In this document: positions 1,529 to 26,339 of the stretch, piece after piece | Layout of the letters: every line of letters begins with the position of its first letter | Numbering within the stretch: position 1 is the stretch's first letter | Source of the DNA: a virus | IMG/VR virus record: IMGVR_UViG_3300022678_000051 | Coordinates: 1-26,339 of that record | DNA length: 26,339 nucleotides | Reading direction: 5' to 3' (one strand) | Made by a program: the position numbers and the translations under genes | The notes under the pieces: generated by a model | The model's database searches: none | What the model saw: the letters and a program-made list of their open reading frames with translations, nothing else | Told to the model about the DNA's origin: nothing

Positions 1529-4500
1529 ATGATTCAACAAGAATATAAAAATAATGTTACAGACATGAGTGGAGAAATCACGACTACGGGCTTCACTATT
1601 GAAGCAAACGCAAGCGTGTATGCTATGCTCACTCAAAATGTCTACAATGATCCTATTCTCGCAGTAATTCGCGAATGGAGCACCAATGCATGTGATGCTT
1701 GTATTGCTGCAGAAGTTCCTGTTGAATATGATGTTCATTTACCTACTCTCAACGAACCAACGTTTTTTGTAAGAGATTACGGAACCGGTTTGCCACCCGA
1801 AGATATTATTGGGTTGTTTAGCAACCTAGGGGCCTCTACAAAAAGAAATTCAAACCTCTATAATGGGACTTTGGGTTAACGTACTGTTTGTATGCTCAAC
1901 CTATATGATGACGATGAGAATAAAAAAATGATAATCATCATATACTAGAGAAAGCAAATACGTTACATAGCCCCTATGCCTAGTGATAGGCATAGCAAAC
2001 CCCTTTAATTGCTGGGAACTCCAGTTAAGTTGTTAGTAGGATATTACGCAGAAATGACGTAACGAACCCTAAAAATCTAACAAATATGGACAATCAGCAG
2101 CCAAGCACCGCACATAGGTGAAGGTCCAACGACTATCCGAAAGGAGTAGAGTCTAAGTAGACTCGAAATAGGGGGTACCTTTTTGATAATTCCTTGACTA
2201 GTATTCCATTTAATGGTACATTAAGTTATTAATTACTAAAAAGGAGTTATCATGCAAGAAATCTACAAAGATATAAAAGGATTTGAAGGATATTATCAAA
2301 TATCAAACTTAGGGAACGTAAAGTCCTTAGGTGCTTATAATAATAGAAAGGAAAAAATCCTTTCGCCAGAAAAGGCAAAAAGCCGAAATATGTATTATGA
2401 ACGAGTCAATCTTTATAAAAAAGGAAAGACAAAACGTTATCTAGTACATAGATTAGTAGCACTGCATTTTCTAAACAACCCTGATAATAGACCTCAAGTA
2501 AATCATATCGATAATAATCCTATGAACAATAATGTTACAAACCTTGAATGGTGTACAGGCAAAGAAAACATGCAACATTCAAGAGCGCAAAACAGGCAAG
2601 AGTACGCAACACAACAGGCAGTGGCTGCAATGGCTAAAGCCAATCGAGCAAAAGTAAAACCTAAATATGATGCTTTAATAGGAAAAAACCTTAATGGGCG
2701 TATACTGCTTAGCTACTCTTCTTGTATAAAACCAAATGGTAAGCCTCGATACAAAGGCTTATTTAAATGCGCAAAATGTAACCAAGAATTCACAGCAGAA
2801 ATGGACTCATCTATTAAAAATATAAATAGAGATTCTCCTTGTTATTGTAGATCTTGTGTAAAAAAACTAAAAGGTAATGATATAGTCTAGTCTGCATGGG
2901 AACATGCAGCTGCAGGTAATGCTGCGGGGCAAGTTTAACGAACTTGCTTGAATACAACGATTGGTCGAATGGCTGGTCTAGCGGTAGCAGAAGCCTTTAC
3001 AGTTGAATCCTACTATGAAGGTACCTGTTATTCATATCTGATCTCTTTACGAGACGGAATTCCGGTAACGCTCCATCTAGGTGATGCACCAACGACGGAA
3101 CGAAACGGCCTAAAATTAGGTGTAAGTGTTGATAAAAACTCCTTTAGTTATTATCGTGAAAAGGCAAATAGTTTATATAAATATTTTGATTATAAACCAA
3201 ATATTAATGATGAAACTATTATCTTAGATCTTGAAATTGAAGAACGAATTTCAGATGATTGGTTTATTCAAAAAAGCACAGATCGATATGATTATGATAA
3301 TTATGTTGTTATGTCCCAAGTAATTTATCAAATTCCACGAAATTCGGCTATTAATACGCACGATTTTCGTCGACTTGTATTAAGAGCTCCAGCTGGATCT
3401 GTAACATTTAATCCAGGTAGAGAATCACTCTCCCTAGATAAAAAAACTATTGATTATGTAAATAAAGCATTTGACAAAGTTAAAGAAGATTATGTAAATG
3501 CTGCAACTACTGCACTTGCTGCATGTGACACAGATCAAGAATTAGTGCGATGTCACTCTAATTTAACACAAAACGCACCAAATAAGATTGCAGCTAATAT
3601 TGATGCTAAACCATTTATGTCCAAAGAATTACAAAAGCTTGTACATAAATGTTATGGGTCACGATATGAAGTTGCAATGAGCGATGAATTTAAAGTCGAT
3701 ACGATAGAGGAACTTCAACTCTATATCAAACATTCTTATTATAAAACCGCAAAACTTTTCAATACTTATAATAGTCTTGGAATTATTCCGTTTTTTGAGG
3801 CAAAACATGTCATTATTGATTTAAAAACCAAATTTAAATCGGCCTTGAATAACTACTATCAAGGAGAAGTTGCAATTTTTTGGCAACGAACTAAAGGCGA
3901 AGAACTTGATAGTGCTATTGAGCATGCAAAACGATATTTAGATGCTATAGGTATTAAATACGTTTTTGCATCAGACATTGTTTCAAAAACACCGGTTGGA
4001 ACAACTCAATCACGTGAAGGGTTTTATGCAAGTAATATTGGACAAACCGGAAAAGTATATCAATCTGGTGCAATGCCCGAAGAAGAAATGAAAAAATCAA
4101 AGTATTTGTATTTACCGTTAAAACATACAACGCCTGAACTACGTAACCAAGATATGACCTTAACTGACTATCTAGTGCTGTATCGATATCTCCAACACGT
4201 TAAGGAAGAAGATCAACCCTCAATAAAAGGTGTTGCAAAAAAATATCAAGATTTTGTTGCTGATTTAGATAATTGGGTTGATTTTGAAGATTATATTCAA
4301 ACTGAAATTCAACAATTGCACTTTCATCATGATTCATCAACAGTTAGTATATCTGGTCGTATGTCTCGAAACTTAGATAATAATACGATTAAAAACTATC
4401 CGGAGATGATTCAACAATATTATAAAAATGTTCAAGAGTATAATAAATTTTGTGCCGATAATACTTATGTTAGGGATGAAGGTGTAAAAAACCTGCTTCT

Positions 4501-4690
4501 TAAATTTAAAGCAACTGGTATTCCTTTTACTCCGCTTTATAATATAACACGAACTGATTTAAAGAAGCGATTCCCTTTAGCTGTAAAACAACTCTTAGGG
4601 GAAATCTATAATGCCCAATTTGACGCGGCAGAGTTGCTCCATCTTACCAAAGTAGAGGACTTTTATGCGATACATTCAGCTGACGAATGA
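1529..4690 (+). CDS. rIIA: rIIA-like GHKL ATPase, interrupted by a group I intron (exons 1529-1876 and 2960-4690)
   Basis: Exon 1 (116 codons) has a good GGAGAT ribosome site and carries the GHKL ATP-binding boxes: REWSTNACDA (residues 48-57, N box) and RDYGTGLP (82-89, G1 box), then GLFSNLGAST. It stops abruptly at YNGTLG followed by TAA. Reading resumes in frame at 2960 with IGRMAGLA, which completes the glycine-rich G2 box. Removing 1877-2959 gives a continuous 692-residue protein, close to T4 rIIA (725). The exon 2 motif FNPGRESLSLD is typical of phage rIIA-like proteins. In T4, rIIA is a membrane-associated protein needed to resist RexAB exclusion; its molecular role is unclear, and rIIA/rIIB-like pairs are common in N4-like phages. 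A TTG at 2948 can open exon 2 but lies inside the intron and is not the true start. The stop overlaps the next gene. Confidence 0.88.
2194..2222 (+). promoter_or_regulatory. Candidate sigma70-type promoter inside the intron, before the homing endonuclease
   Basis: TTGACT (2194-2199, 5 of 6 consensus bases) is separated by 17 bases from TACATT (2217-2222, 4 of 6). It lies 30 bases upstream of the endonuclease start codon. Expressing the endonuclease from its own promoter, independent of spliced pre-mRNA, is known for T4 intron endonucleases. The match is moderate, and A/T-rich DNA produces such patterns by chance. Confidence 0.4.
2252..2890 (+). CDS. Intron-encoded HNH homing endonuclease (NUMOD4 + HNH)
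   Basis: This 212-residue protein opens with a NUMOD4 module (YKDIKGFEGYYQISNLGNVK, residues 5-24). An HNH nuclease domain follows at about 65-105: VHRLVALHFLN, then VNHIDNNPMNNNVTNLEW with the catalytic-type His85, Asp87 and Asn88. The C-terminal third has two Cys pairs (C173/C176 and C199/C202) that look like a zinc ribbon, probably for DNA binding. Such enzymes cut intronless copies of the host gene at the insertion site so that repair copies the intron in. A strong AAGGAG ribosome site lies 5-6 bases before the ATG. Its TAG stop falls on the S element of the intron core, so the last codons also encode part of P7. It probably mobilises the surrounding intron. Confidence 0.93.
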   Translation: MQEIYKDIKGFEGYYQISNLGNVKSLGAYNNRKEKILSPEKAKSRNMYYERVNLYKKGKTKRYLVHRLVALHFLNNPDNRPQVNHIDNNPMNNNVTNLEWCTGKENMQHSRAQNRQEYATQQAVAAMAKANRAKVKPKYDALIGKNLNGRILLSYSSCIKPNGKPRYKGLFKCAKCNQEFTAEMDSSIKNINRDSPCYCRSCVKKLKGNDIV

Positions 4691-5027
4691 TTCATATGTT
4701 TTGTATACCCCCCAAGGGTTAAAAACAATTACTAAAAAATCTTTTCATTATCATAAAATCCAAAAACTTGTACGACAGGGTGCAGACGCTGACGAAATTT
4801 TGCCTTTACTTGAAAGTCCACTACTGCTAAATGGATTATATGAAGCATATTTACAAGATGATAAAATGATATATTTACATACCGAAGAAAACGGTATTCA
4901 AAAAGTCGTTGAGTTAATGACTAATCGACTTCTTGGGGAGACTCTTGACGAAACAACAGCTGAATTTATGGGTGTTTATGCATCATTAGATGATTTGATG
5001 GAAGATTGGCCGGAATATGTATTTTAG
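4665..5027 (+). CDS. Small rIIB-position protein, possibly rIIB-like
   Basis: This 120-residue acidic protein starts 26 bases inside the end of the rIIA-like gene, with AGAGGA as ribosome site, so translation is probably coupled. The N-terminal ~50 residues (MRYIQLTNDSYVLYTPQG, then FHYHKIQKLVRQGADADEIL) resemble the short conserved N-terminal region I associate with rIIB-like proteins of non-T4 phages: a small beta hairpin followed by a helical FxxI...L..G.D.....L pattern. The rest is helical with no recognised motif. It is much shorter than T4 rIIB (~312), so rIIB is inferred mainly from position. No membrane segment or signal peptide is visible. Confidence 0.45.
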   Translation: MRYIQLTNDSYVLYTPQGLKTITKKSFHYHKIQKLVRQGADADEILPLLESPLLLNGLYEAYLQDDKMIYLHTEENGIQKVVELMTNRLLGETLDETTAEFMGVYASLDDLMEDWPEYVF

Positions 5028-13619: not shown

Positions 13620-14195
13620 ATGGCTACTAAATTAATTCAATCGGCCAATCTAAAACTTGGACCAAACACAATGATGTTTAATATCCCAGCCTGTCCTGCA
13701 GTTTGTGGTCGTATCTGTGCAGGCTGTTACAGCTACAAAGCATACCGAATGTACCCTAAGGTACTTATCGCGCAAGAACGTCGACTAGAGGCATCAAAAC
13801 GGCCCGATTTTGCCATGATTATTCAACAAGAGTTGGCCAGTTTACGAAAGAAGCCGACATATTTTCGGATTCATGGTTCGGCTGGTGAGTTTTATAATCA
13901 GACGTATATTAATGCTTGGGCCGAGATTGCAAAAACAACCCCAAATGTGATATTCTACGCTTATACGAAGCGATTACAAGATTTCGATTTTACAACCTTA
14001 CAAAAATTATCTAATATGGTTTTGATTGATAGTTTACATTTCGGAAAAGTTAATTTTGGGAAAGCAGAAGAGGTTCCCTCTGGAGCTTATATCTGTCCAG
14101 CTCAAAAAGATGTTGTTATCTGCGGCATTGATTGTACATGGTGCATGCAAAAAGGATATGCAGATACACATGGGGTATTTTTTATTAAACATTAA
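13620..14195 (+). CDS. GP88-like cysteine-rich phage protein
   Basis: I prefer the ATG at 13620 (MATKLIQSANLKLG, 191 residues), with AAGGA about 12 bases upstream; an in-frame ATG at 13587 would lie inside the previous gene without a ribosome site. The N-terminal pattern NTMMFNIPACPAVCGRICAG followed by CYS gives four closely spaced cysteines, then IAQERRLEAS. Near the C-terminus are YICPAQ, VICGIDCTWCMQ and more cysteines. This arrangement, with a central TIM-barrel-like FRIHGSAGEF ... FYAYTKR section, resembles the phage 'gene product 88' family. The family has no established activity; the cysteines suggest bound zinc or an iron-sulphur cluster. Confidence 0.7.
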   Translation: MATKLIQSANLKLGPNTMMFNIPACPAVCGRICAGCYSYKAYRMYPKVLIAQERRLEASKRPDFAMIIQQELASLRKKPTYFRIHGSAGEFYNQTYINAWAEIAKTTPNVIFYAYTKRLQDFDFTTLQKLSNMVLIDSLHFGKVNFGKAEEVPSGAYICPAQKDVVICGIDCTWCMQKGYADTHGVFFIKH

Positions 14196-14202
14196 CAGTT
14201 AA

Positions 14203-14264
14203 GAGCAAGGGTACTGTCTCCTACCCTGATGGGCCTTTCCGGTGGGGTGCTCGCTAATCACCGG
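14203..14264 (+). promoter_or_regulatory. Structured intergenic RNA before the RusA-like gene (possible pseudoknot)
   Basis: Hairpin I has a perfect 6-bp stem AGGGTA (14208-14213) / TACCCT (14222-14227). Hairpin II has a perfect 6-bp stem CCGGTG (14239-14244) / CACCGG (14259-14264). GAGCA (14203-14207), just before hairpin I, is complementary to TGCTC (14248-14252) in the loop of hairpin II, which would make a pseudoknot. The GGAGG ribosome site of the next gene follows 14 bases later. No U tract follows, so it is not a standard terminator. A role in controlling translation is inferred. Confidence 0.4.
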
Positions 14265-14288
14265 ATCTTATTTCTATTGGAGGATATT

Positions 14289-14699
14289 TTGAGATTAATA
14301 CTCCCTATTTACTATACTCAACAGTTTAAACGCAAAAATGATAAAGTTTGGCTAGTTGGGGATAATGCTTTTCGCAATTGGCATTACTTTCTTAAAAACC
14401 AAGTAAAACAACATTACCACAACTTAGTTGCTACACAAGTAACTGGAATACCATTAAACGGTCCATACGAACTTCGAATTAGGTTGTATTTAAAAAATCC
14501 AAATTCGGATCCATCAAATGTTGCATCAAGAATGGAAAAATTTACTTTAGACGCCTTACAAGCAGAAGGTGTTATAAAGAGTGATAATAGTAAGTATCAT
14601 AAACGTACCTTGTGGGAATTTATGGAGATTGATAAAGAAAACCCACGAGCAGAAATCGAATTAATCGCAATCCCAACTACTGGAGAAAACAATGGCTGA
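14289..14699 (+). CDS. RusA-like Holliday junction resolvase (TTG start)
   Basis: The start is taken as TTG 14289 because GGAGG (14279-14283) lies 5 bases upstream; an in-frame ATG at 14229 has no ribosome site and falls within structured RNA. The resulting 137-residue protein has RusA family length (~120-140). The key region is NPNSDPSNVASRMEKFTLDA followed by LQAEGVIKSDNSKY, matching the RusA pattern of an acidic pair, a Lys helix, 'DAL', and a downstream acidic pair that bind catalytic metals. RusA dimers cut four-way DNA junctions symmetrically, which suits resolving replication and recombination intermediates before packaging. It overlaps the next gene by 8 bases. Confidence 0.83.
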   Translation: MRLILPIYYTQQFKRKNDKVWLVGDNAFRNWHYFLKNQVKQHYHNLVATQVTGIPLNGPYELRIRLYLKNPNSDPSNVASRMEKFTLDALQAEGVIKSDNSKYHKRTLWEFMEIDKENPRAEIELIAIPTTGENNG

Positions 14700-15096
14700 A
14701 TTGAAAGAAGTACTCAACGAACGTGGCTCAAATTATGGAAATTTTCATACTTTTTCGAATTTGTCCCAATCACTGTATGCCATTATCATGAAGCATTATA
14801 GTGATCTCAACAAACAACGCGGTGAAGATGCACCGTTGCCTGCATTTATGGCTGAATCTCTTCGGATGATTTGTCATAAGCTTGCACGAATTGCGAACGG
14901 CAATCCTTATTATGCGGATAGTTGGATAGATATCGGAGGATACTCCCAACTAGTTGCTAATATCCTTGAGGCACACGAGGCCCAACAAGCACAAGCTGCG
15001 GTGGCTAAAGCAAAAGCAGACGATGCGAAAGCAAATGCTGAAGAAGTTAAAGCGACTAGTCCACAACTCGTAAATCCCCAACCTAAACCCGAATAA
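14692..15096 (+). CDS. DUF6378-like conserved phage protein
   Basis: The 134-residue protein starts within the end of the RusA-like gene (GGAGAA site). The N-terminal VLNERGSNYGNF, the central SLRMICHKLARIANGNPYYA and the following DSWIDIGGYSQL form the signature I associate with the DUF6378 family: an ERg.xYG motif, a K-x-A-R-I helix, and a DsWxDIxGY segment. Activity is not established; the all-helical fold with these acidic positions recalls MazG-type enzymes but is not proof. The last ~40 residues are a low-complexity Ala/Lys/Glu tail (AQAAVAKAKADDAKANAEEV) ending in a Pro-rich stretch, an unusual extension. Confidence 0.75.
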   Translation: MAELKEVLNERGSNYGNFHTFSNLSQSLYAIIMKHYSDLNKQRGEDAPLPAFMAESLRMICHKLARIANGNPYYADSWIDIGGYSQLVANILEAHEAQQAQAAVAKAKADDAKANAEEVKATSPQLVNPQPKPE

Positions 15097-15105
15097 GGAG
15101 TAGTT

Positions 15106-15690
15106 ATGTCTGGAATTGTCTTTGAACTACCGAAATCCCCAACTAGGATTTGGGATCTTGCTGTACCAATCGTTATAGATAAAGATGAGCGGAATATTAA
15201 AATTTATATTCGCGATACAATCGATGAACCGTACAACTATAATGAAATGTGTTATTTGCTGGCAACTGCTCGCGAAGGAACCGTTGTCGATCTTTATCTG
15301 AATACGCCGGGTGGTATTATTGATACCGCATTTATGCTCGCAGATGCAATTAAAGCATCAAAAGCAAAAGTTGTTGGACATTTGGCGGGAACTGTAGCGT
15401 CTGCAGGAACTATTATAGCAATGGTCTGTGACGAAATTGAAGTTGCACCACACTTGTCTTTTATGATTCATAACTATTCTGGCGGAATGCAAGGGAAAGG
15501 AAATGAACTAAAAGCTCGACAACAGTTTGTCGATGCGCAACTTAATGATGCCTTCAAAACTTTTTATTCTGGATTTTTGACAGAAGATGAAATGGATCGT
15601 GTCATTGAAGGTACCGATCTTTGGATGGGTACTGACGAAGTTGCTGAACGTTGGAATAAACGAGTAAGTTATATGAAAGGAGAAGTTTAA
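15106..15690 (+). CDS. ClpP-like serine protease
   Basis: The 194-residue protein has the ClpP/crotonase fold and the size of ClpP. LNTPGGIIDTAFMLADAI (about residues 65-82) is the oxyanion-loop motif. GTVASAGTIIA contains the nucleophile Ser99, and FMIHNYSGG contains His122, nearly the same numbering as in E. coli ClpP (Ser97/His122). The Asp is probably in TDLWMGTDEVAE. It lacks a head-maturation context: its neighbours are nucleotide and DNA enzymes, not portal or capsid genes. It may therefore work as a peptidase on host or phage proteins with a host Clp ATPase, rather than as a prohead protease. A strong AAGGAG site precedes the ATG. The stop overlaps the next ATG as TAATG. Confidence 0.87.
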   Translation: MSGIVFELPKSPTRIWDLAVPIVIDKDERNIKIYIRDTIDEPYNYNEMCYLLATAREGTVVDLYLNTPGGIIDTAFMLADAIKASKAKVVGHLAGTVASAGTIIAMVCDEIEVAPHLSFMIHNYSGGMQGKGNELKARQQFVDAQLNDAFKTFYSGFLTEDEMDRVIEGTDLWMGTDEVAERWNKRVSYMKGEV

Positions 15691-15911
15691 TGGAAGAAGA
15701 ATTAGCTGCCTTTATTAAAAATATGACACAACTGGATAATAATGGCGCTGCTGAAATCTTTTCAACAAAAATGACAAAGTCCGTACCAACGGTGTTAGGA
15801 GAAACAATTACTGGGCTGTTAGCTCAAAAGTCCCTAACAAAAGCACAAGTCGATCTATTAGCGTTGCTTCTAGATTCGTGGACTAAACTTACACTTGGTG
15901 GGAAAAGTTAA
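15690..15911 (+). CDS. Small protein of unknown function
   Basis: A 73-residue helical protein, coupled by TAATG to both the ClpP-like gene before it and the MazG-like gene after it; AAAGGAG lies upstream. No recognised motif, signal peptide or membrane segment is visible. The sequence is a series of amphipathic helices (EELAAFIKNM, then KAQVDLLALLLDSWTKL). The double overlap makes it a real gene. A link to its neighbours' functions is only positional. Confidence 0.75.
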   Translation: MEEELAAFIKNMTQLDNNGAAEIFSTKMTKSVPTVLGETITGLLAQKSLTKAQVDLLALLLDSWTKLTLGGKS

Positions 15912-16258
15912 TGAATTCAATCGATGGTATTATTAAATTTAACGTAGATCGAAATCTCCTTACTTTTAACGCAGAAGTGGAGTATCGTCTGTTGGAAGAA
16001 GAACTACAAGAATTTTTTGTGGCTTCTGCAAATGAAAATAAAGTCGATATGGCTGATGCCTTATGTGATCTGGTTGTCGTAGCAGTTGGTGGATTATATC
16101 AACTAGGTTATGACCCAGAAAAGGCATTATTGGAAACAGTAAAAGAAGTTTTAAGCCGAAAAGGAGCGATTAATCCTGGAACTGGTAAATGGGAAAAAGA
16201 TCGTACTCAAGACCCTAAGACTCTCTATAAGGCGGATTATACAGCCGCAGAAAGATAA
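15911..16258 (+). CDS. MazG-like nucleotide pyrophosphohydrolase
   Basis: The 115-residue all-helical protein carries the metal-binding pattern of the MazG/PRA-PH superfamily: LEEELQEFF (Glu31, Glu34) followed by VDMADALCDLVVV (Asp46, Asp49, Asp53), i.e. the ExxE...DxxxD arrangement. A later KEVLSRKG and GTGKWEKDRTQD segment is typical of phage members. Such enzymes hydrolyse (d)NTPs or related nucleotides to monophosphates, possibly cleansing the nucleotide pool or adjusting host signalling. It starts on a TAATG overlap with the upstream gene, and the next gene begins 2 bases after its stop. Confidence 0.82.
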   Translation: MNSIDGIIKFNVDRNLLTFNAEVEYRLLEEELQEFFVASANENKVDMADALCDLVVVAVGGLYQLGYDPEKALLETVKEVLSRKGAINPGTGKWEKDRTQDPKTLYKADYTAAER

Positions 16259-16260
16259 AT

Positions 16261-16512
16261 ATGGAGTATATCTTAATAGGTTTAGTTTCAGCGTTTAACT
16301 TGGTGGTAATTCTGCAAAAATTCAAACACAACCGAATTGAAGATGGTGTCTTTGACGTATTACTATTTATTCTTTTAGTAATGATGTTTAATGGTTCCTA
16401 TTCCGGCATGGTGGTTGGAATGGTTGCTTCGTTATGCGTATCAGCTTACCTATGGTTTTGCCCACCAACCTTTTTTCAGAAACTAAACAAACTTCGAAAA
16501 TTTGTAAAATAA
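16261..16512 (+). CDS. Small membrane protein
   Basis: The 83-residue protein has three hydrophobic segments: about residues 3-19 (ILIGLVSAFNLVVILQ), 30-45 (FDVLLFILLVMMFNGS) and 48-66 (GMVVGMVASLCVSAYLWF). A short basic tail follows (QKLNKLRKFVK). It is an inner-membrane protein of unknown role; the positive C-terminus suggests that end is cytoplasmic. It is the last gene of the plus-strand block, 2 bases after the MazG-like gene and with only a weak ribosome site, and directly precedes the terminator. A holin is conceivable from size and topology, but nothing lytic is nearby. Confidence 0.7.
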   Translation: MEYILIGLVSAFNLVVILQKFKHNRIEDGVFDVLLFILLVMMFNGSYSGMVVGMVASLCVSAYLWFCPPTFFQKLNKLRKFVK

Positions 16513-16548: not shown

Positions 16549-19500
16549 TTAATTCCCACCATTAAGTGCCCAATCGACAGCTTCAAATGAGGTTGGCGTA
16601 AACACTCTCATCAAATTATCCCATGGGTTGTAGAAAATATTACCCATATCCTTTGTCAGAAGCGACTGATCGTCAAACGTATCTAACTCACCAATAATAT
16701 AATCTTGCGCTAAAATGGATAAAAGTAACTTAAGTGGATGTTCTTTTCCATATCTATGGATAACGCGTTGAATTCGGGTAAAGTATTTTGTAAACATTAC
16801 AAAACCCATTTGGTTTGCCCATTCAACAAATCGACTGTTAGGCTTGTTATAGTTAATAAAGTTATCACGAACCGTGTTGATTGCTTTTTCTTTTGGGGCA
16901 CCTTGTTCGACCATTAAATGATACTGCGCATACCTAGCAGCAAAATCCGATGCTTGTACACCCTTCTCCACTAGTTTAAATAATTTTGTATTTTCTGTAA
17001 TATAAAGTAAATTTACACCATCACTGAAAATTTTCGGCATTTTACTCAATTTCTTTTTTGCAAGCCGATTAAAGTAACTACCGGAACCGGTATCTGCACC
17101 ATGCTCAATTTCTTCGAGAATGGTTGTATAAAATCCTGAATCAACCAAATCTTTTACAGGGCTGTTTTGTAAGTTATTTTGAATTACATTAAGCTCTCGT
17201 TCCTCTGCTTTTGTCGCAATCCCCGCCTGTACTTTTGCCCCCAGTATTACTGATTGTTTCATACCTTCCACAAACATATTCAATTCTTTAATGCCTTGTA
17301 ATTTTAATGTCGTAATTTCCTTAAATGAGTAGCCAGATGCATACATCAACATAAAATTACTAACCACATTACCAATAAACACTCCTGGAGTACGAATAAT
17401 AACATCTGCTTTGGAGATCTTGATCAATTCTTGCCAAAGTTTTTCAGCAAATTGAAGAGCATATTTAATTGTTGCTTTATAGGCTTTTGGGTTTTTACCG
17501 AAAAACTGTTTAAGTATTGGAAAATCAGCCAAACTTAGTTCACGATAACCAAGATATGAATACATTAAATCACGTCGTACTGTGAACCCATCTGGATATT
17601 TGCTTTTAATGTTTTGTGGAAGAATACGCCACAAGCCTCGAACTTGTTCTTCTGGAGAATCTTTAACAATTGTAATATATTCTTTTTGATTTTTTCCTAT
17701 AATACTCAATTGTTCGGGGGTTAAGTTTTTTTGTGCATCTTCTTCAATCAATTTCATCATCTCGCTGTTAAACTGTTCGGTTGCTTCTTTATCATAAGTT
17801 GATGCAGCTGTACGTCCCATAATTGTGCTCGCTTTCCGTTCGAGCTCCAATAAATCGATCTTTGCATCTTTATTCATCCCATAACTAAAATCCGTAACCT
17901 GCCCAATTTTATTAAAAACAGGACTAATCATAGCATCACCTGGCACAGCCTCGGGATTATATGTGCCCTCGTGCATTTGCTGAATCACGGCCATACGACG
18001 CTGTCGCATATCGCGGATATCTTTTACAGCCCGAAGGGTAGGTTGCGAATCTCCACTTTTCGTATAACTTTCTGTAATCGTGGTTCCTCTCCGACCTTTG
18101 TCCGTCATGCGTAAACCGACTCGATGAAAATTTTGCATAACATACTTATTATTTACATAGAGCCCCATTCCAGTACGATTATTATCCAAATCATGTTTTC
18201 CAAGCGCCTGAACTAGTTTATATCCCTGCGCCTCTAATTTTGCTTTGTCACTCAGTGGTGCGGTTGTTACTTCAATATCCGGATTTGTAATCTGTGCGGA
18301 ATAACCTTTGATTATATTGATTCGATCACTAGGTGTCGGAAACAACCGTTCTTCTGCGCGTTGTTGTTGCCCTTGTTGAAACGCAATAAAATTTGAAACG
18401 CCTTGCGCTTCTTCTGTCATAAGTGTTTGAATAACAACTCGTTTTGTTTTCGGAACTTTGCGTAATGCTTTGAGGGTGGTTAACTCATCAATTAGGGTAA
18501 CCAATTCCGGTGTTACTTCTACTGTTTCACGCGTCCCTAGTTTCTTTGCTATGTTTTCTGCATTTTTCAATAGTGCGATATGATCTTCATGGTTATTCAA
18601 GTAATTTGCTAATAGCGTAGTCTGCATTTCATAAAAATTGACAGATTGTGGATCACTCAATTCACCTAAACGCGACATAATCTTTTTAATCTCGGCATCA
18701 ATTTTTCCGTTGCTCCCCAATAATTCTTGAATAGGGTAACTGCCAAAAATGCTGGCTAAGTCGGTATCCAAGACAACATCGGTTAATGCCGTTTCCTCTT
18801 CCTGGGTTAAAGTACGTGTAAAATTCTGCAGAATGGTCTGAGCGGTATAAAGAGCGCGATATTCGCGTTGTTGGTCAATAACCGCCGATAACATACCTAG
18901 GTGTTCTACGTCAATCTGTTGTTTGTCGGCAGCTCGCATGTCCCTAAATGTTGAACGAATCGTACCTTCTGGCTTAAACGGGTTATAGCCTCCTTTAATC
19001 GTTGCAAGACTTAAAGCACCCGCAATAATATCTTTTGCTTGTTCATCGAAAAAGGCCCGTGTAGCGAGTCGTGTCATATAACGAAGATTACCTTCACCCT
19101 GTTTTGCCACATTTCGGCTTGGGTTGTTTTCCATTTCTTCTTTTTTACGGGTTAAGAAATCTTCCCATTTACGTTCAATTGGATCAAAGACTGAAATCAG
19201 GTTTCGGATCCCAAGCGTACGTTTTGCTTCTAGTGGTTTTTTGTGGGCACTTTGCAAACGACTAATCAAAAAGACCATTCGTGAGAAATCATCACCTTTC
19301 GGTTCTTTTGTGATTGTCCGTGCAATCAGCTGCACTAAATCATGGAAAGCATCAACTAAGCGGTAAAACAGGCTTTGACGCCCTTGTTCTTTCTTAGCAG
19401 TAACATCCAACTGTTTCAACTGATTTATTACAGCCTTGTTTGACATACTTAACGCAACAAATTCATGCAAACCAACTTTGGGGTCGGTTAAGTGGTCTAG

Positions 19501-20340
19501 GAGTTTTCCAGCTTGTTCTTCAGTTAACGTATTTCCAGAAGCCCGAACAAGATCAGCTTCAGTTGTTTGATCGAGAAAGTTTTTTCGGATCTTTTCCATT
19601 CGCGATGTAATCCCACGAGTTGCTGTACTAGTTCCAGTGATTGCGTAATGTGTCACAGCGTGATAAAGCTCATGGACATAAATTTCCATCAAACTCTTTG
19701 AACCACCTACACCCTTAGATATATAGATATCATTCGTATCAACATTAATTTGCCCAAAATTCGCTTCTCCTGCATTATTAATATGGACATTAAGGTTAGG
19801 TACCATTTCAATGAGAGTGGCTGTTATACGCCGTAATTGGTCCTGTAAGACAAGGTTATGACTCTCATCATTGTGGTATTCATCAGCATCGATTAGTGCT
19901 TGAGCGACTTCAAGAATTTTGGCTGGATTATTTGTAATATCCTTCGCAAGTTCCTCAAAATCATCAAAAGAATTGAGATTTTCATAATCGGAATAAAGTG
20001 TTTCGAGACTATCCTTAGTGACTACGAAACTACCTTGTTGAGTATCAAAATCCGCGACTTCTCGGATATCGGTTTCAAGAGTCGTGGAATCACCTTTCAG
20101 TTTATACTTCATCCGAAAGTTACCATCCTCCGTCCGCGTAATATCCAAAACCGAAACAGGCTCACCATTCAGTGATAGCTGAGCTGCCTTCAAAGTACGA
20201 GTAATAAACGCAGTAGGCGTATTACTTAATTCGGCCCGTTCTATTTCCGACATTCCCCGAACTTGGCGAACTGTACGTTCTATGACAGATTTGTCTTCAG
20301 CACGAACCGCATCCGTAATACCTTGAATAGTACATTTCAT
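16549..20340 (-). CDS. Large 1263-residue protein with HExxH metallopeptidase domain, probable virion/ejection protein
   Basis: The start has AAAGGAC upstream, 2 bases after the previous gene's stop. Residues ~150-330 hold a zinc metallopeptidase-like domain. GQINVDTNDIYISKG is the edge-strand region, VHELYHAVTHYA carries HExxH at His223-His227, and LHEFVALSMSN supplies a likely third ligand, Glu293. A middle region (~430-800) is helical and unrecognised. The C-terminal ~400 residues include a hydrophobic stretch (RTPGVFIGNVVSNFMLMYAS) and a conserved-looking segment FINYNKPNSRFVEWANQMGF followed by FTKYFTRIQRVIHRY. That pattern occurs, to my recollection, in the C-terminal parts of giant N4-type vRNAPs and other large polyvalent phage proteins. 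Being last in the vRNAP operon, it is probably packaged and ejected too (inference). The protease activity and target are unknown. Confidence 0.75.
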   Translation of the reverse strand: MKCTIQGITDAVRAEDKSVIERTVRQVRGMSEIERAELSNTPTAFITRTLKAAQLSLNGEPVSVLDITRTEDGNFRMKYKLKGDSTTLETDIREVADFDTQQGSFVVTKDSLETLYSDYENLNSFDDFEELAKDITNNPAKILEVAQALIDADEYHNDESHNLVLQDQLRRITATLIEMVPNLNVHINNAGEANFGQINVDTNDIYISKGVGGSKSLMEIYVHELYHAVTHYAITGTSTATRGITSRMEKIRKNFLDQTTEADLVRASGNTLTEEQAGKLLDHLTDPKVGLHEFVALSMSNKAVINQLKQLDVTAKKEQGRQSLFYRLVDAFHDLVQLIARTITKEPKGDDFSRMVFLISRLQSAHKKPLEAKRTLGIRNLISVFDPIERKWEDFLTRKKEEMENNPSRNVAKQGEGNLRYMTRLATRAFFDEQAKDIIAGALSLATIKGGYNPFKPEGTIRSTFRDMRAADKQQIDVEHLGMLSAVIDQQREYRALYTAQTILQNFTRTLTQEEETALTDVVLDTDLASIFGSYPIQELLGSNGKIDAEIKKIMSRLGELSDPQSVNFYEMQTTLLANYLNNHEDHIALLKNAENIAKKLGTRETVEVTPELVTLIDELTTLKALRKVPKTKRVVIQTLMTEEAQGVSNFIAFQQGQQQRAEERLFPTPSDRINIIKGYSAQITNPDIEVTTAPLSDKAKLEAQGYKLVQALGKHDLDNNRTGMGLYVNNKYVMQNFHRVGLRMTDKGRRGTTITESYTKSGDSQPTLRAVKDIRDMRQRRMAVIQQMHEGTYNPEAVPGDAMISPVFNKIGQVTDFSYGMNKDAKIDLLELERKASTIMGRTAASTYDKEATEQFNSEMMKLIEEDAQKNLTPEQLSIIGKNQKEYITIVKDSPEEQVRGLWRILPQNIKSKYPDGFTVRRDLMYSYLGYRELSLADFPILKQFFGKNPKAYKATIKYALQFAEKLWQELIKISKADVIIRTPGVFIGNVVSNFMLMYASGYSFKEITTLKLQGIKELNMFVEGMKQSVILGAKVQAGIATKAEERELNVIQNNLQNSPVKDLVDSGFYTTILEEIEHGADTGSGSYFNRLAKKKLSKMPKIFSDGVNLLYITENTKLFKLVEKGVQASDFAARYAQYHLMVEQGAPKEKAINTVRDNFINYNKPNSRFVEWANQMGFVMFTKYFTRIQRVIHRYGKEHPLKLLLSILAQDYIIGELDTFDDQSLLTKDMGNIFYNPWDNLMRVFTPTSFEAVDWALNGGN

Positions 20341-20342
20341 AT

Positions 20343-22970
20343 TTATTGTCCTTTAGCTGCACATTTATCAACATTTTCTAAAACATCCGCTTGTTCACCC
20401 TTATTTTGGGTTTTAACTTTTGGGGTGTCTTCAACTTGCCGAATCGGTTGTGCGTTTATAAGCTTATTTCCTCTCAGAGGTCGATTATCAATCACCACAA
20501 GTTTTTTACGTGGACGTGAGGCTGCGACATAAAGAGATTTGACAATACTATTCACATCAGCCTTTCCTTGACCCGCGATATTACCTAAATCCATATATAC
20601 GGTATCGTAAGTACTTCCTTGAGATCGGTGGCTATTAATAATATACCCATGCGCAAGTTGGGACGCAAGTACATTCGTAAGCCTGAATGCACCATTCGGG
20701 TTTTGACCTTTTTCATGTAAACGTTTTCTTTCATCTGCCATTAATGCGTTTACGCTCTTCTTATCTAGGGGTTTATTAAAAATAATCGTTTCCCCGTCTA
20801 TAGTACTCTTTCCAGTAATCTCATATACTTTAATTGTTTTTCGTGTCGTTTCGAGACGTTGCCCAACCTTGTAGTCTAGTACTTTTTCAACAATTTGACT
20901 TGAAACAACGACAAACTCTTCACCGTTTGTAACTCGTTTACTTTCATCTAAATCTAAATCATATTCATAAGGACCATTCGCCATTAATGGTTCGCCTGGA
21001 AGAAACTTCGTGGTTAAAGCTTCGTCTCCATACAAAGCATGTCGAATTTTTTCGATATTTGCCAAGGTCGTTGGATGATCAAATGCATTATAATTAATAT
21101 ATTTAGTTGTTTGAGGGGCCAATTTGTAATCCTGCAAAAAACTCGGCAACAGCGTTGAAAAGTCTTCTGACGCCAATATCACACCTTCGTTTGTTTGAGC
21201 ATCAAACTTTGTGAATTTTGCACCATCCCATAATTCTTTTTGAAAGTCTTCTTTTAGTTTGCTTGAAGTTTTGTTGGTAAATTTTTTCTCAATTTCATCG
21301 ACCCAAGCAATTAAGCGATCTGTTAATGTAATAATCGGAGATTTTTCACCTTGCCTCATCAATTCTGTAAGTTTGGCGTTTGTATCTTTATTTTCTGTAA
21401 ATACAATAGATTTGATTGGCGCATGTTTATCTTTGATTGGAGGTAATTGTGCGTTATCTCCCATAAATATTATTTTTGTCCCTGAAGCAGCCGCATTTGC
21501 CATAATTTCATTATAATTCTCGCTATGTAACATAGACGCTTCATCGATTACAAGAATCTTACCTAGGGGCGGTAATGTTGCATACGGATCTGGAAGAAAG
21601 ATCTGATTCCCTTCTCGATCATATTCGGGTTTTACGCCTAGTAGCTGTGCAACGGTATAATGCGGGCTAGCGCCATACGGAGAATTTAAGTTCGCTTTTT
21701 GTAAAACCTTAATCGCTTTGTTTGTTGGGGCAGCAAACGTCACGTTCGTCGGATTAAGGCCTAACTCCTGCAATAATACATTAATAACCGTTGTTTTTCC
21801 AGTACCGCCACGGCCTTGTAATAAAAAGGTTTGTTTATTTGTTGTATACCATTCCTTTATTTTGTTAATAGCACGTGTTTGGCCGACGTTTGTCGACATC
21901 TTATCATTTATTTTATAAGGTTCTGGTGCTGGTCCTGTCTCTGTTTCGGGTTGTACAACCTCTTCGGTTACTATTTCCGGCTCAGCTTGCGTAGTATCTT
22001 CTACTGGGATATCAGGTTCAAACGGTACACTTGAGTCCGAATCTGGTGCCCATGGTTCATCACCAAACGGGACAGCATCATCAACAACCCACGGGGGTGT
22101 ATCATATTCCAACGGATCTTCAGCCATCTGAAGAAAGATATTAAACAAGGCTTCGCTTTCAGAACCCATATTAATCTTAACCATCTTCGCTAGAGTGTGC
22201 ACTAACTTATGTAACTGAGAAACAAACCCGGTAGCTTCTTGCTCATTTAGTTTTTGCATTAGTTTAGGATTACTTAACGCAACCGCAATAAATTCATCTA
22301 CATCCGTTTTCCAGTACCCATCTTGAATACTATCTAAATCCGTATCGGTTTCCGCTAGTTTCAGGGTCTTTTCAAATAAACTATGGACATATTTTGTTTT
22401 TTCGTCGTATGGAAACATTTGCATAAAACGCGTTGCACCAGCATGAATATGCTCATGAACTTTAGTTATCGCTAAGAACAAACTTTTTTGCTTAGCTTCG
22501 ATTAAACTACGAGCTTCATCTATAGATGCTAAATTAAGAGTCGTTTGGAGTTTCTTAAGTGCGGTTTTGTCGTTTAAGAGTGCCTCATAATCCGGATACG
22601 TGATTTGATGACCTGTTTTCAGGTATTCATGCCACGCAACGGCAACTTTTGAATCTTTTTCTTTTGTGAGGATCTGCCACGCCAAATCTTTATCTTTAAC
22701 TACATCGATTGGTCGTGTACTTTTTATAAATTCGATAAACCGTTTGGCAAAAGCGGTATAACTGAATTGTTCCGTAGGCGCGGGAGACGGGGCCAGTTCT
22801 GCCCCAAGGTATCCTGCAGCTTGTTGAATCCGTGCACGATCGCGGTTAAACTTTGTAAATAAGTTTTCAATAGCCGCTCTGCGCGCTTTGTTCTCTTTTG
22901 TAGACGGGATTTGTCGATATAAGTCCTCAATATACTTTAAGGTTTCGACGATTTGACATTTAGTAGCCAT
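20343..22970 (-). CDS. HExxH metallopeptidase domain fused to an SF1 (RecD/Dda-like) helicase
   Basis: The 875-residue protein starts on a TAATG overlap with the vRNAP stop, with AAGGGA upstream. The N-terminal ~280 residues contain VHEHIHAGATRF (HExxH at His172-His176) and DVDEFIAVALSNPK (Glu226, likely third zinc ligand), related to the domain in the next gene. An acidic, Pro-rich linker spans about 284-350 (for example PWVVDDAVPFGDEPWAPDSD). The helicase follows: QGRGGTGKTTV (Walker A, Lys392), ILVIDEASML (Walker B, Asp476), FMGDNAQLPPI (motif III), LTELMRQGE (motif IV), INSHRSQGSTYDTVY (motif V) and LYVAASRPRKKLVVID (motif VI). This is the SF1B pattern of RecD2/Dda, expected 5'-3'. Its place between vRNAP and a large virion-type protein suggests packaging with the polymerase; that is inference. 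Confidence 0.85.
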   Translation of the reverse strand: MATKCQIVETLKYIEDLYRQIPSTKENKARRAAIENLFTKFNRDRARIQQAAGYLGAELAPSPAPTEQFSYTAFAKRFIEFIKSTRPIDVVKDKDLAWQILTKEKDSKVAVAWHEYLKTGHQITYPDYEALLNDKTALKKLQTTLNLASIDEARSLIEAKQKSLFLAITKVHEHIHAGATRFMQMFPYDEKTKYVHSLFEKTLKLAETDTDLDSIQDGYWKTDVDEFIAVALSNPKLMQKLNEQEATGFVSQLHKLVHTLAKMVKINMGSESEALFNIFLQMAEDPLEYDTPPWVVDDAVPFGDEPWAPDSDSSVPFEPDIPVEDTTQAEPEIVTEEVVQPETETGPAPEPYKINDKMSTNVGQTRAINKIKEWYTTNKQTFLLQGRGGTGKTTVINVLLQELGLNPTNVTFAAPTNKAIKVLQKANLNSPYGASPHYTVAQLLGVKPEYDREGNQIFLPDPYATLPPLGKILVIDEASMLHSENYNEIMANAAASGTKIIFMGDNAQLPPIKDKHAPIKSIVFTENKDTNAKLTELMRQGEKSPIITLTDRLIAWVDEIEKKFTNKTSSKLKEDFQKELWDGAKFTKFDAQTNEGVILASEDFSTLLPSFLQDYKLAPQTTKYINYNAFDHPTTLANIEKIRHALYGDEALTTKFLPGEPLMANGPYEYDLDLDESKRVTNGEEFVVVSSQIVEKVLDYKVGQRLETTRKTIKVYEITGKSTIDGETIIFNKPLDKKSVNALMADERKRLHEKGQNPNGAFRLTNVLASQLAHGYIINSHRSQGSTYDTVYMDLGNIAGQGKADVNSIVKSLYVAASRPRKKLVVIDNRPLRGNKLINAQPIRQVEDTPKVKTQNKGEQADVLENVDKCAAKGQ

Positions 22971-25900
22971 TATTTACATCCCTTTATCATGTCTTCGATT
23001 TTTGCTCGGATTTTACTATACTCCGATCCAAGAGCATTTTGAAGTTGTTTATTATCAAGGGCCGCTGAAATTGCGTTCGCCTGTTTTTGGATATAACTAG
23101 CCGAATCTTTTACCTGTTCTTCGATATTAATCGTTACCATCGTGCCTTCTGGCCCAACAAGTTGTCCGACTTTAGCGTTTTGGGAAAACAGTTTTTTACG
23201 CGCTTCTTGGACTTGTCGATTTAAAACCGCCAAGGTGTTTTGCATTGAAGCAAAATCTAGTAATTCTTTATTATTAGGTGGGCCTACCTCAACCGTCGCG
23301 TCTGTCATCCCGTTAACTTTCCCTAGTTGCTCAATCGCATTTACGAATTCTTGTATAATAGAATAATTTCTATTGGTTGTATAGAAGTTTTCATTATATG
23401 AGTTAATTACTGACGCTTCATCAATACCTAAAACAATCGCATCATGGATTGGCAACGCATTTTGCCCTGTTGTACCTTTATATGCTTGATTAAGGGACTT
23501 CGCCATGACCGAAGAATCTAAGGATAAAACGGTTAAGACAGCAGGACCAACACCAGGATCGCCATAACTACGGGCAACGGTGTTTGCTGTAAACCGACCT
23601 TTTGCTTTCAACCCTGGAAGAACAGTTAAAACATCATTATGCGTTTCCTCTAAAACATTTTTCAGAAAGGTAATTTTGTTAAATTGGGCATCCGAACTAG
23701 CTCCTGCTACACCAGGAATAATACTGGCAACATCTTTTAAGAATTCTATTTTTTCGTTATCAGTCGCATTCGGGTTCTGATTACGCCATACATAATATTC
23801 GCGTTTAAAATGGTCATACATAAACTGTGCAGCGTTAGTTAAAGCACTGTTAATTGCCGTCTGTTTCTCAAACAAGGTTTCAAGAGTCTCTGTTAAAGGC
23901 TCTCGATAGAGGGTATCAATAGTTGCATATAAGTCATTCCGAAGAATACGAATATTTTTACTATCCTTTCCAACTGTCATCAAACTATTATTTACCAAAT
24001 CGATTCGTGCCTGATGATAAATTTCACCTTTATCACCAAACGTCTTAACAAGCTGGTCTTTCGTAATTTTATAATTACCTTTTCCATCTTTTGCAGTAAT
24101 TAAATCAATCAGTCCTCGACCACTTAAGTATCCGGTTCCCATTACCTGATCATCAACTAGTCCGCTTGCGATTTTATTAATACCCGCTGCGTAGTTAAAG
24201 ACCATAACTGGGGATTTCATCAGTTTACGAACAAAACTTTTTACAACCTCATCATTTTTAGAGAAATCAGGTAACCCCTTATCTGTTTTTTCTAACAACG
24301 CTACCCATTTTTTGCTGTTTTGGTTTTTGATCTTTCGCTTTGCCTTACTGACGGCAGTATTAAAACGTTTTCCTACTGAAATATAAACATCTTCTTGTCC
24401 AAGCGCTCGGGCACCATTCATACTCTCTAAAGAATAAAGAGATGAATCTTCTGGTATAAAGCCAACCTTTTCTAGCCATTGTTGTGGTGTAGTATCCGAA
24501 CCTTCAGATGCAACCGGAAACTGCATTGCTCTAAAGGCAAAACCGTTTGTTAAGCCGTCAAGCTCTAAGACCATATCTGAATAAAAAGATTTAGCTCCTA
24601 CCTCATTATATTTAGTAATATTTGCAATCGCTAAAGCCGCATGACCTAAGTGCTGTGATTGTAGGGCCATTGCTTCTAGTTCAGCTTGCGGTTTATCTAG
24701 AAGTTCTTTCGCATATGCCAAGATTTGTGATTGACTATCTTTATCGATCCCTGGAACTCCGTCTGCACCATCAAAGGCCTGAACAATCCCATAAAGAAAC
24801 ATAGTAGCAGCCATTGACGTTGATTTTCCATCTAAGACATCATTAATTGTCTGTTTACTTAGTGTTACGCGGGAGTTGTTCGTAGTTAACAACCACCGAG
24901 CTAGGTGTTTATCGGATTGCGGATTAATGCGATTACTGTCCAAGTGAATACGATGATTTTTTGCAATAAACCAGTTAAAGTAGAGTTTTCCGTCACCAAT
25001 ACCATTTCGTGTTTCTTGATAAAATTGGATATTTCGTAAAAACGCCTCTTTTTGAGCATCATAGCGTTCCATTGCATCAAAGTTCGTAGCATTACTGCGT
25101 GGCCCTAAGAAATGGGTTATAAGCGCATCTGTATCCAGTTCCCCGTCTTTTGAGAACAAGGAGAATAAGACGGTATCACCACTATTAAAACTAAAGGCAG
25201 TATTTTCCAATGTATTTACTAGTTCTGTGTGATCTTTTGGGGCTTCTTGGTGTGAAAGCCTATGAACATTTACAGATCTTTCTTTACTTCGTAAGTCTTT
25301 CCGATATGTACGTTCTTTATCGAATTCCATTTTATACTTATCTTCAAAGCGATTCAGATCTTTCTTTACGTTTTGAAGTTTATTGAATAAGTCCGGAATA
25401 CCAACAATAAACCGAAGCTCATCAGCTAAAAACCCATTCGCTTTATCAGTATCAGTCGGTGTATAGGAAAAATTTGTAAGAAGCGTTCCAGATACGCCCT
25501 GCAGTGCAACGATTCCAAAAGAAGTAGCCAACGCTTCTCTATTTTGGATATTTTCAATTTCCAGCCCGAGATTACTGATAATTTTTTGACCTACGTCTGC
25601 AGCCAAGAGTTTTAGTGTAACTCCACCAGTACGTAACGCAGTAGCTAATGGTGTGGAAAGCTTGTCTTCCGAAATCCCCAGAAGTTCTGCAATTTCTTCG
25701 TCAGTTCGATACCCACTCCGCAGATTCGTCGCATCTTGCATAATCTGCTCATAGACCGCTGCTTGGATCGCTTCTGCCGCATTATAGTTGATTGTGCCAT
25801 CTTCTTTAAACAAGAAAGCTAAAAGCGGGTTTGTTTTATAGTTATTACCATTCTCTAAATCGATATTCGTTCCAATCGCAGCTCGAAGAGTTTTTACAAA

Positions 25901-26339
25901 CTCTTTTGTACTAGTCGAAACATCTTCTCTACTACGTTCGGATAAAGTAAACCCCGTAGCTGTAAATCCATCAATTATGTCATCTAACGTTGTTGTAATT
26001 GGTTTCCTATTTTTGATGCCGCCTGCAAAATTTTTATAGAGTTGGATAGTAACCGTAACTCCCCGATTAGCAAAACTTTTTACGTGCTCTACAAAAGCAT
26101 TTTTAATGCTGTGTCCAAATTCTGCTCGGTCCTCTTTAAGCTTTAACCGTTCTTCAAGCAAAGCGGTTAGTTGAGGATCATTTAAAAGCATTGTTTTCGT
26201 AACTTTTTTGTGTTTCCGGCGTAACTCTTCGCGTCTCGCAGTTATCGATTTTTGGTTTTCTTTAAGCGCTTGCTTATTTGCTTCAAACAGCTCAACCGTT
26301 TCATCTTTTTCTTGTTTAACGCGTTTCTTTGGTTTTGCA
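22970..26339 (-). CDS. N4-like virion RNA polymerase (vRNAP), N-terminus outside the window
   Basis: The frame stays open to the window end, and the first Met (26191) has no ribosome site, so the protein is longer than the ~1122 residues seen. Numbering from that Met, all T7-type single-subunit RNAP motifs occur. The T/DxxGR-like region is AKNHRIHLDSNRINPQSD (Arg414). Motif A is LELDGLTNGFAF (Asp545). Motif B is RKLMKSPVMVFNYAAG (Arg655, Lys659, Tyr667). Motif C is PIHDAIVLG (Asp917). As I recall, N4 mini-vRNAP has R424, D559, R666, K670, Y678 and D951: the same order with closely similar spacings. N4 packages this enzyme in the capsid and ejects it with the DNA to transcribe early genes from hairpin promoters. 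Unlike N4, the chain ends ~150 residues after motif C. Confidence 0.9.
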   Translation of the reverse strand, partial: AKPKKRVKQEKDETVELFEANKQALKENQKSITARREELRRKHKKVTKTMLLNDPQLTALLEERLKLKEDRAEFGHSIKNAFVEHVKSFANRGVTVTIQLYKNFAGGIKNRKPITTTLDDIIDGFTATGFTLSERSREDVSTSTKEFVKTLRAAIGTNIDLENGNNYKTNPLLAFLFKEDGTINYNAAEAIQAAVYEQIMQDATNLRSGYRTDEEIAELLGISEDKLSTPLATALRTGGVTLKLLAADVGQKIISNLGLEIENIQNREALATSFGIVALQGVSGTLLTNFSYTPTDTDKANGFLADELRFIVGIPDLFNKLQNVKKDLNRFEDKYKMEFDKERTYRKDLRSKERSVNVHRLSHQEAPKDHTELVNTLENTAFSFNSGDTVLFSLFSKDGELDTDALITHFLGPRSNATNFDAMERYDAQKEAFLRNIQFYQETRNGIGDGKLYFNWFIAKNHRIHLDSNRINPQSDKHLARWLLTTNNSRVTLSKQTINDVLDGKSTSMAATMFLYGIVQAFDGADGVPGIDKDSQSQILAYAKELLDKPQAELEAMALQSQHLGHAALAIANITKYNEVGAKSFYSDMVLELDGLTNGFAFRAMQFPVASEGSDTTPQQWLEKVGFIPEDSSLYSLESMNGARALGQEDVYISVGKRFNTAVSKAKRKIKNQNSKKWVALLEKTDKGLPDFSKNDEVVKSFVRKLMKSPVMVFNYAAGINKIASGLVDDQVMGTGYLSGRGLIDLITAKDGKGNYKITKDQLVKTFGDKGEIYHQARIDLVNNSLMTVGKDSKNIRILRNDLYATIDTLYREPLTETLETLFEKQTAINSALTNAAQFMYDHFKREYYVWRNQNPNATDNEKIEFLKDVASIIPGVAGASSDAQFNKITFLKNVLEETHNDVLTVLPGLKAKGRFTANTVARSYGDPGVGPAVLTVLSLDSSVMAKSLNQAYKGTTGQNALPIHDAIVLGIDEASVINSYNENFYTTNRNYSIIQEFVNAIEQLGKVNGMTDATVEVGPPNNKELLDFASMQNTLAVLNRQVQEARKKLFSQNAKVGQLVGPEGTMVTINIEEQVKDSASYIQKQANAISAALDNKQLQNALGSEYSKIRAKIEDMIKGCK

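Follow-up and report, generated by a model that had tools for sequence, protein, structure and literature searches.

Cysteines at the breaks of a segmented N4-type virion RNA polymerase suggest disulfide joining of separately encoded pieces

How might a virion RNA polymerase (vRNAP), which phage N4 makes as one chain, be delivered when its parts are encoded as separate proteins? This question is raised by the viral record IMGVR_UViG_3300022678_000051 (IMG/VR), the whole 26,339 nucleotides (nt) of which are referred to here as the window. Three consecutive minus-strand open reading frames (ORFs) fill its last 9.8 kb, and the record ends inside the first of them. Judging from the sequences, we consider it likely that they represent one N4-type vRNAP chain encoded as separate polypeptides, the ends of which would be linked in series through intermolecular disulfides.

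The three pieces contain four cysteines (Cys) in 3,260 amino acids (aa), each no more than six residues from a broken end, namely residue 1121 of 1,122 in piece 1, residues 5 and 870 of 875 in piece 2, and residue 3 of 1,263 in piece 3. About 32 would be expected from the composition of the other window genes, and the probability of four random cysteines landing one per facing end is ~3e-10. Because there is a single Cys on each side of each break and none elsewhere, disulfides are possible only between the ends of pieces. The features concerned are as follows.

22970-26338, minus strand: piece 1, catalytic piece of an N4-type vRNAP by its match to PHROG_2206 (E=1.7e-61), 1,122 aa visible, ORF open at the contig edge
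23042-26173, minus strand: match of the RNA polymerase (RNAP) domain within piece 1 to PHROG_2206
22976-22978, minus strand: codon (TGT) of Cys1121, the second-last residue of piece 1 (KGCK-stop)
22968-22972, minus strand: junction 1, TAATG stop/start overlap, with a change of frame
20343-22970, minus strand: piece 2 (cargo), zincin-like domain and superfamily 1 (SF1)/Dda-like helicase, 875 aa, only Cys at 5 and 870
22956-22958, minus strand: codon of Cys5 of piece 2 (MATKC)
22443-22457, minus strand: HEHIH of piece 2, residues 172-176
20481-21908, minus strand: SF1 helicase domain of piece 2, about residues 355-830 (PHROG_325, Pfam AAA_30, UvrD_C_2)
21792-21815, minus strand: Walker A of piece 2
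20361-20363, minus strand: codon of Cys870 of piece 2 (DKCAAKGQ-stop)
20338-20345, minus strand: junction 2, TAA-AT-ATG with a 2-nt gap and a change of frame
16549-20340, minus strand: piece 3, C-terminal half of an N4-type vRNAP (C1 zincin-like and C2 domains), 1,263 aa (PHROG_2206, E=1.6e-152)
20332-20334, minus strand: codon of Cys3 of piece 3 (MKC)
19660-19674, minus strand: HELYH of the C1 domain of piece 3, residues 223-227

These ORFs are colinear with N4 gp50. Piece 1 matches PHROG_2206 ('virion RNA polymerase') over profile positions 911-1959 and piece 3 over positions 2268-3388, residues of piece 2 match positions 2104-2223 weakly (2e-4), and piece 3 aligns along N4 residues 2154-3500. 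The segmented N4-type vRNAP proposed by an earlier note on this DNA, including the relationship of the 1,263-residue protein to the vRNAP C-terminus, is thus borne out. The operon of three ORFs described there is confirmed as well, with one detail to add: TAATG is found at junction 1 only, and junction 2 is TAA-AT-ATG. By its sequence, piece 1 is a T7-like RNAP domain of the N4 vRNAP family with catalytic motifs (R463, D594, K708, Y716 and D966 are among the invariant columns in an alignment of nine relatives), and it matches this family rather than the crAss polymerase. Instead of the single chain of ~3,500 residues that characterizes N4-type vRNAPs, the window has separate ORFs with a frame change at both junctions. 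Since the record comprises exactly 26,339 bases, the N-terminal domain (NTD) of the polymerase lies off the contig. In N4-type enzymes the NTD binds membranes, and in N4 it is ~1,000 aa long; the first piece of the related contig L081 (L numbers are our contig handles) is 2,360 aa, enough length for this domain. The same three-gene order is kept in four contigs (the window, L007/L081, L008 and L009), which excludes a chance arrangement.

The helicase of piece 2 (PHROG_325 4.5e-64; Pfam AAA_30 2.2e-25 and UvrD_C_2 2.4e-7, both above cut-off) has intact motifs (Walker A GRGGTGKT at 386, DEAS at 476 and SRP at 818), and HEHIH is at 172, in agreement with the metallopeptidase-helicase fusion noticed earlier. 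Matches of piece 2 in a defence library are generic helicase matches. Unlike a free-standing replication enzyme of ~430-490 aa, this helicase is embedded between capped ends, i.e., ends that carry a terminal Cys, and has no internal Cys. Free-standing helicases of the same family (405-487 aa) contain 6-12 Cys each, a contrast that supports, as a separate line of evidence, transport of the helicase together with the polymerase. The HEHIH domain is homologous to metallopeptidase-like cargo domains of L033, L068 and L088 (1e-13 to 1e-16) and weakly to C1; the AlphaFold2 model of this piece is poor (predicted local distance difference test score, pLDDT, 45), and its zincin-like assignment is sequence-based. 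For C1 of piece 3, a zincin-like fold with HExxH is predicted: the best PDB match of the model of residues 1-430 (AlphaFold2) is N4 gp50 itself (9pnr, Z 8.9, root-mean-square deviation 3.4 over 168 residues), other zincins are matched with Z about 7, and the N4 counterpart of HELYH is HELVH at 2228.

Unbroken relatives, L084 excepted (see below), lack cysteines altogether. N4 gp50 (3,500 aa) and the PT15-A5 vRNAP (3,495 aa) have none, and Cys-free vRNAPs have already been published for N4, LUZ7 and roseophages (PMC3715699, PMC2784036). In Alteromonas phage vB_AmaP_AD45-P1, the vRNAP, despite its annotation as a single gene with a 'potential frameshift', consists of two clean ORFs of 2,495 and 1,409 aa, the only cysteines of which are residue 2493 of the first and residue 4 of the second.

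This pattern was surveyed in 32 non-redundant contigs with 43 complete junctions, the relatives having been collected by alignment-based scans of viral contigs. All 86 junction-facing ends carry a Cys within ten residues (85 of them within six), whereas none of the 55 complete outer ends does. On the N-terminal side, the Cys is residue 3 (28 times), 4 (13 times), 5 (once) or 10 (once), and on the C-terminal side it always lies in the last six residues. Not one internal Cys was found in 119,205 residues, compared with 0.91% in the remaining genes on these contigs, taken as background. Where the start was ambiguous, as in a few contigs, the ATG adjoining the Cys was chosen, which hardly affects the pattern because the interiors are Cys-free. 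Spacing at the junctions ranges from -11 to +26 nt, with one of 1,752 nt, all three frame relations occur, and the pieces have their own start codons. Eleven unsplit chains (N4, PT15-A5, LUZ7 and eight others, including the frame-broken L087) have no Cys.

A reverse, annotation-free search found 92 of 491 distinct complete ORFs (at least 250 aa) whose cysteines lie only within ten residues of an end. Nearly all of the 92 are chain pieces of this kind; L029, L084 and a 401-aa ORF of L120 are the exceptions. A genome scan returned two loci only, both of which follow the Cys rule; a scan with A5 gave no usable pattern. L029, L087 and L120 were considered as counter-examples and rejected, given that they are frame-broken inside domains and all come from metagenome 3300002231 (with Ns in L087 and L120, and overlapping frames); an extra break in the 5' part of L080 and L049 likewise resembles a sequence error. 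The unsplit vRNAP of L084 (5621-15880; 3,419 aa) has its only cysteines in SCDC at the very C-terminus, as if it may be prepared to link to a further partner, and no capped gene follows within the short remaining contig.

The breaks appear to fall in linkers. The RNAP profile of the split family aligns up to N4 residue 2086, 30 profile positions short of the junction, and this places the junction in or beside the disordered N4 linker 2102-2123 between RNAP and the C-terminal domain (CTD) (PMC12633501). The 100-residue NTD/RNAP linker of N4 (907-1006) is likely the site of the other splits. Residues 1-4 of the piece 3 model are disordered (pLDDT under 50), and the terminal Cys is likely to be exposed in this model.

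Four architectures are found, namely NTD-RNAP/CTD, NTD-RNAP/cargo/CTD, NTD/RNAP/CTD (L076, L090) and NTD/RNAP-CTD (L021). Every middle piece is capped at both ends, including the RNAP itself in L076 and L090, and the outer ends are bare. The combination of zincin-like domain and SF1 helicase is the cargo in the four contigs that share the window's gene order; L033 and L083 have HExxH proteins of 360-408 aa in this position. The L068 cargo (14181-16511) contains two HExxH domains and, by eye, a 2H-phosphoesterase-like part, that of L086 (10450-13083) HExxH and 2H-phosphoesterase-like parts together with a NADAR-like domain (Pfam match at 1.1e-5, short of the curated cut-off), and that of L088 (10530-12515; 661 aa) HExxH and a possible ADP-ribosyltransferase part (by eye). 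These last three are candidate injected anti-defence enzymes. In L021, unrelated genes, one endolysin-like by eye, lie between the two capped pieces (3055-4808), and hence capped partners need not be neighbouring genes.

The cysteines also come and go with the breaks. A quick IQ-TREE phylogeny of the C-terminal half, which contains several long branches, has mostly split chains on one side and unsplit chains on the other. L056, an unsplit chain of 3,141 aa that has no Cys, falls within the split clade (SH-aLRT 100) beside L010, the first half of which ends EEC and the second of which begins MSC; L056 is a re-fusion with which both cysteines were lost. Conversely, L021 is split at the NTD/RNAP border within the unsplit side (on a long branch) and has the Cys pair, and it is an independent new split with which both cysteines were gained. 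A fused version of the window architecture, which the earlier note had recommended seeking in relatives, is L120, where RNAP, HExxH, a DprA-like part, a Dda-like helicase and the start of C1 lie in one frame without Cys, so that the helicase is inside the polymerase chain; the assembly of this contig is of poor quality.

The same rule is followed by a different polymerase in Crassvirales. In Cellulophaga phage phi14:2, the only cysteines are C1797 of 1,797 in gp78, C3 and C2179 of 2,180 in gp77, and C3 of 1,421 in gp76; gp77 is the polymerase (PDB 6VR4), and all three are annotated as structural proteins identified by tandem mass spectrometry. crAss001 has C2339 of 2341 in gp47, C5, one internal Cys and C2404 of 2412 in gp50, and C5 in gp49. 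All three crAss001 proteins were found in the virion by mass spectrometry, and disulfides do occur in virion proteins of this phage (PMC10172136). Across 17 Crassvirales-type chains, 53 of 56 facing ends and none of 23 outer ends are capped, with 42 internal Cys in 94,364 aa (0.045%, against a background of 1.1%), and some of the pieces include SF1 helicase domains. The first piece in crAss001 and DAC15 is encoded on the strand opposite to the others, so that neither translational coupling nor read-through nor a local DNA motif can account for the rule. Two further observations concern this group. Phage thioredoxins, possibly relevant to disulfide reduction, lie near capped giant genes in two genomes (L095:23001-23270 and L100:24365-24634), and gaps of about 0.5-0.7 kb separate capped giant pieces in the crAss-like contigs L110, L111 and L114.

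Taken together, the restored chain would be [NTD-RNAP]-Cys / Cys-[zincin-helicase]-Cys / Cys-[C1-C2]. It would be packaged and then threaded via the tail and a periplasmic channel as one beads-on-a-string polypeptide, in the way that has been proposed for the unsplit N4 enzyme. The bond would survive the oxidising periplasm and would probably be broken in the reducing cytoplasm, setting the helicase, the RNAP and the C-terminal domain free as individual proteins; the order of the pieces might be enforced by docking of folded domains. The middle slot would be a cargo position, filled by a helicase here and by metallopeptidase-like, NADAR-like or 2H-phosphoesterase-like modules in other phages. 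Most simply, the helicase might help early on to unwind the entering DNA or to pull it in. For N4 vRNAP, the current view is that it exits the capsid through a ~35 A channel, as a flexible chain resembling beads on a string (PMC12633501), and passage through the tail or the oxidising periplasm has been suggested as a reason for its lack of Cys (PMC3715699). We propose that split chains turn this chemistry to their own use. Homology, composition and the mass spectrometry of analogous Crassvirales pieces suggest that the window pieces are likewise packaged and ejected. Their joint delivery, also proposed in the earlier note, gains indirect support from the Cys-free interiors, the Crassvirales virion proteins and the fused L120. 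The Cys pairs at the breaks, which had been overlooked there, are the feature that best explains delivery of the three polypeptides as one machine.

Several points weigh against disulfide joining. The bond is deduced rather than observed chemically. One Cys per end sets no order, so that pairing of piece 1 with piece 3, or of a middle piece with itself, is possible. Given that the cytoplasm is reducing, the bond must form in the virion or after lysis. Finally, gut Crassvirales contain some internal Cys (the 42 counted above) and three uncapped ends. Two of these ends serve as a control in favour of the rule, as they flank a group I intron in cr108 (RF00028, 80 bits), and the third adjoins a LAGLIDADG-type ORF in cr116 (by eye); exons joinable by RNA splicing need no cysteine. 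In the crAss-like phage cr108_1, this intron (L100:13088-13406) interrupts the giant gene of RNAP type, whose exons are listed in the annotation as separate proteins.

Among the alternatives, the one that survives best, though we regard it as unlikely, is that the terminal cysteines do other work, such as joint metal binding, docking to portal or ejection proteins or serving as an export tag, while the pieces associate non-covalently. The short flexible tails, seen in the C1 model, could bind other partners, and the unsplit L084 ends in SCDC. However, each break has a Cys on its two sides while outer ends have none, the pair was lost in the re-fused L056 and is present at the different break of L021, and a metal site could not be built from a single Cys per end unless further ligands took part. 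Considerably less probable is that the pieces are three independent ejected effectors in the style of polyvalent proteins, with metallopeptidase domains that process or attack proteins and with incidental cysteines. N4-like RNAPs are indeed found fused to zincin-like peptidases and other effector domains, for which peptidase processing has been suggested (Iyer et al. 2017, PMC5512222). Incidental cysteines, however, cannot yield 86 of 86 capped ends with none elsewhere, and the HExxH of AD45 C1 is degraded to EEVVH, indicating that catalysis by C1 is not conserved; the idea that proteases of this operon process virion proteins or attack the host is therefore not supported. That the breaks are gene-calling or sequencing artefacts or read-through stops, as proposed for AD45-P1 and pSb-1 (PMC10654107), can practically be dismissed, since, although pSb-1 is annotated in three pieces without Cys and the three contigs of metagenome 3300002231 are clearly frame-broken, in 32 contigs the break lies at a domain border and the pieces have starts of their own, varied spacings and all three frame relations, the crAss001 and DAC15 pieces lie on opposite strands, and the Cys pair is present at real breaks and absent from artefactual ones.

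Frames, spacing, opposite strands and the number of contigs likewise rule out read-through, frameshift and sequencing error in general. The terminal Cys was also considered as a by-product of a DNA-level stop/start motif and this was rejected, as the pair persists over spacings from -11 up to 1,752 nt and also where the pieces are on different strands. Joining by native chemical ligation or in the manner of an intein is disfavoured, since the Cys occupies residue 3-5, not residue 1, and inteins were not seen.

Compared with known systems, N4 gp50 (Schitoviridae) shares with the window homologous RNAP, C1 and C2 domains in the same order, a Cys-free interior and a position adjoining convergent replication genes; it differs in being one Cys-free 3,500-aa chain, whereas the window has at least three chains, its breaks are each marked by Cys, and a helicase is inserted as cargo between RNAP and C1. 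AD45-P1 (Efbeekayvirus) has the same RNAP/CTD split, the same Cys pair and a very similar flanking gene order, but only two pieces and no helicase cargo. The vRNAPs of phi14:2 and crAss001 share giant pieces with single Cys at facing ends and differ in the kind of polymerase (PDB 6VR4), in pieces that may lie on opposite strands and in the few internal Cys of gut members. In two-chain AB proteins, disulfide-linked parts are freed by cytosolic reduction. These offer an analogous reducible link between delivery part and payload, with no homology claimed; unlike in AB proteins, the link here would reconnect a broken polymerase chain and can do so at two junctions. Polyvalent proteins also have a zincin-like peptidase and effector domains attached to an N4-like RNAP, but as covalent gene fusions, with no terminal-Cys segmentation described (PMC5512222).

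Cys-free vRNAPs, zincin domains in N4-like RNAPs and polyvalent proteins were already known (PMC5512222). A published survey ascribed the split vRNAPs of AD45-P1 and pSb-1 to gene-calling mistakes or read-through, concatenated them and handled the pSb-1 pieces as one protein; it also filtered out proteins under 2,500 aa, and many split pieces would thereby drop out (PMC10654107). In the open-licence literature searched on vRNAPs, crAss phages and ejection proteins, no report of terminal Cys or disulfide joining was found; earlier work elsewhere is possible. Although the polymerase itself is of a known kind, we rate the principle as new, since two unrelated polymerases follow the rule and it is a property of neither family. 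It is probable that at least two phage lineages with unrelated polymerases use such 'disulfide-stitching', in which Cys-capped modules are linked in the virion, delivered as one thread and separated by the reducing power of the host cytoplasm.

If this is true, stitching turns the middle slot into an exchangeable site in which helicases, anti-defence enzymes or similar early-acting cargo can be placed, and it would give a simple answer to how a multi-chain polymerase passes a ~35 A tail channel in the right order. The puzzling absence of Cys in N4-type vRNAPs would become a rule: none unless the chain is broken, and then one per side. This rule speaks against the published interpretation, in which split vRNAPs are mistakes of annotation or sequencing. 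Sequence alone would predict ejected phage proteins and the neighbour to which each is joined, including unknown cargo possibly acting against host defences. The principle also suggests a linker, cleavable by reduction, with which cargo proteins could be threaded into bacteria.

Of the remaining observations, a close relative of the AD45-P1 operon lies on a contig (L093) binned as a metagenome-assembled genome of a Sulfolobales archaeon, and this is in all likelihood phage DNA that was misbinned. The rest of the window, convergent with the vRNAP operon, encodes a primase, rIIA, an exonuclease, a Sak4-like protein, SSB, a UvrD-type helicase, a family A DNA polymerase, RusA, a ClpP-like protease and a MazG-like protein. 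The rIIA-like gene (1529-4690) is in two parts of one PHROG, residues 1-116 (1529-1879) and 116-694 (2948-4690). Rfam found no group I intron there at the gathering threshold; an HNH endonuclease ORF (2252-2890) separates the two parts, and the interruption is probably an intron or a homing insertion.

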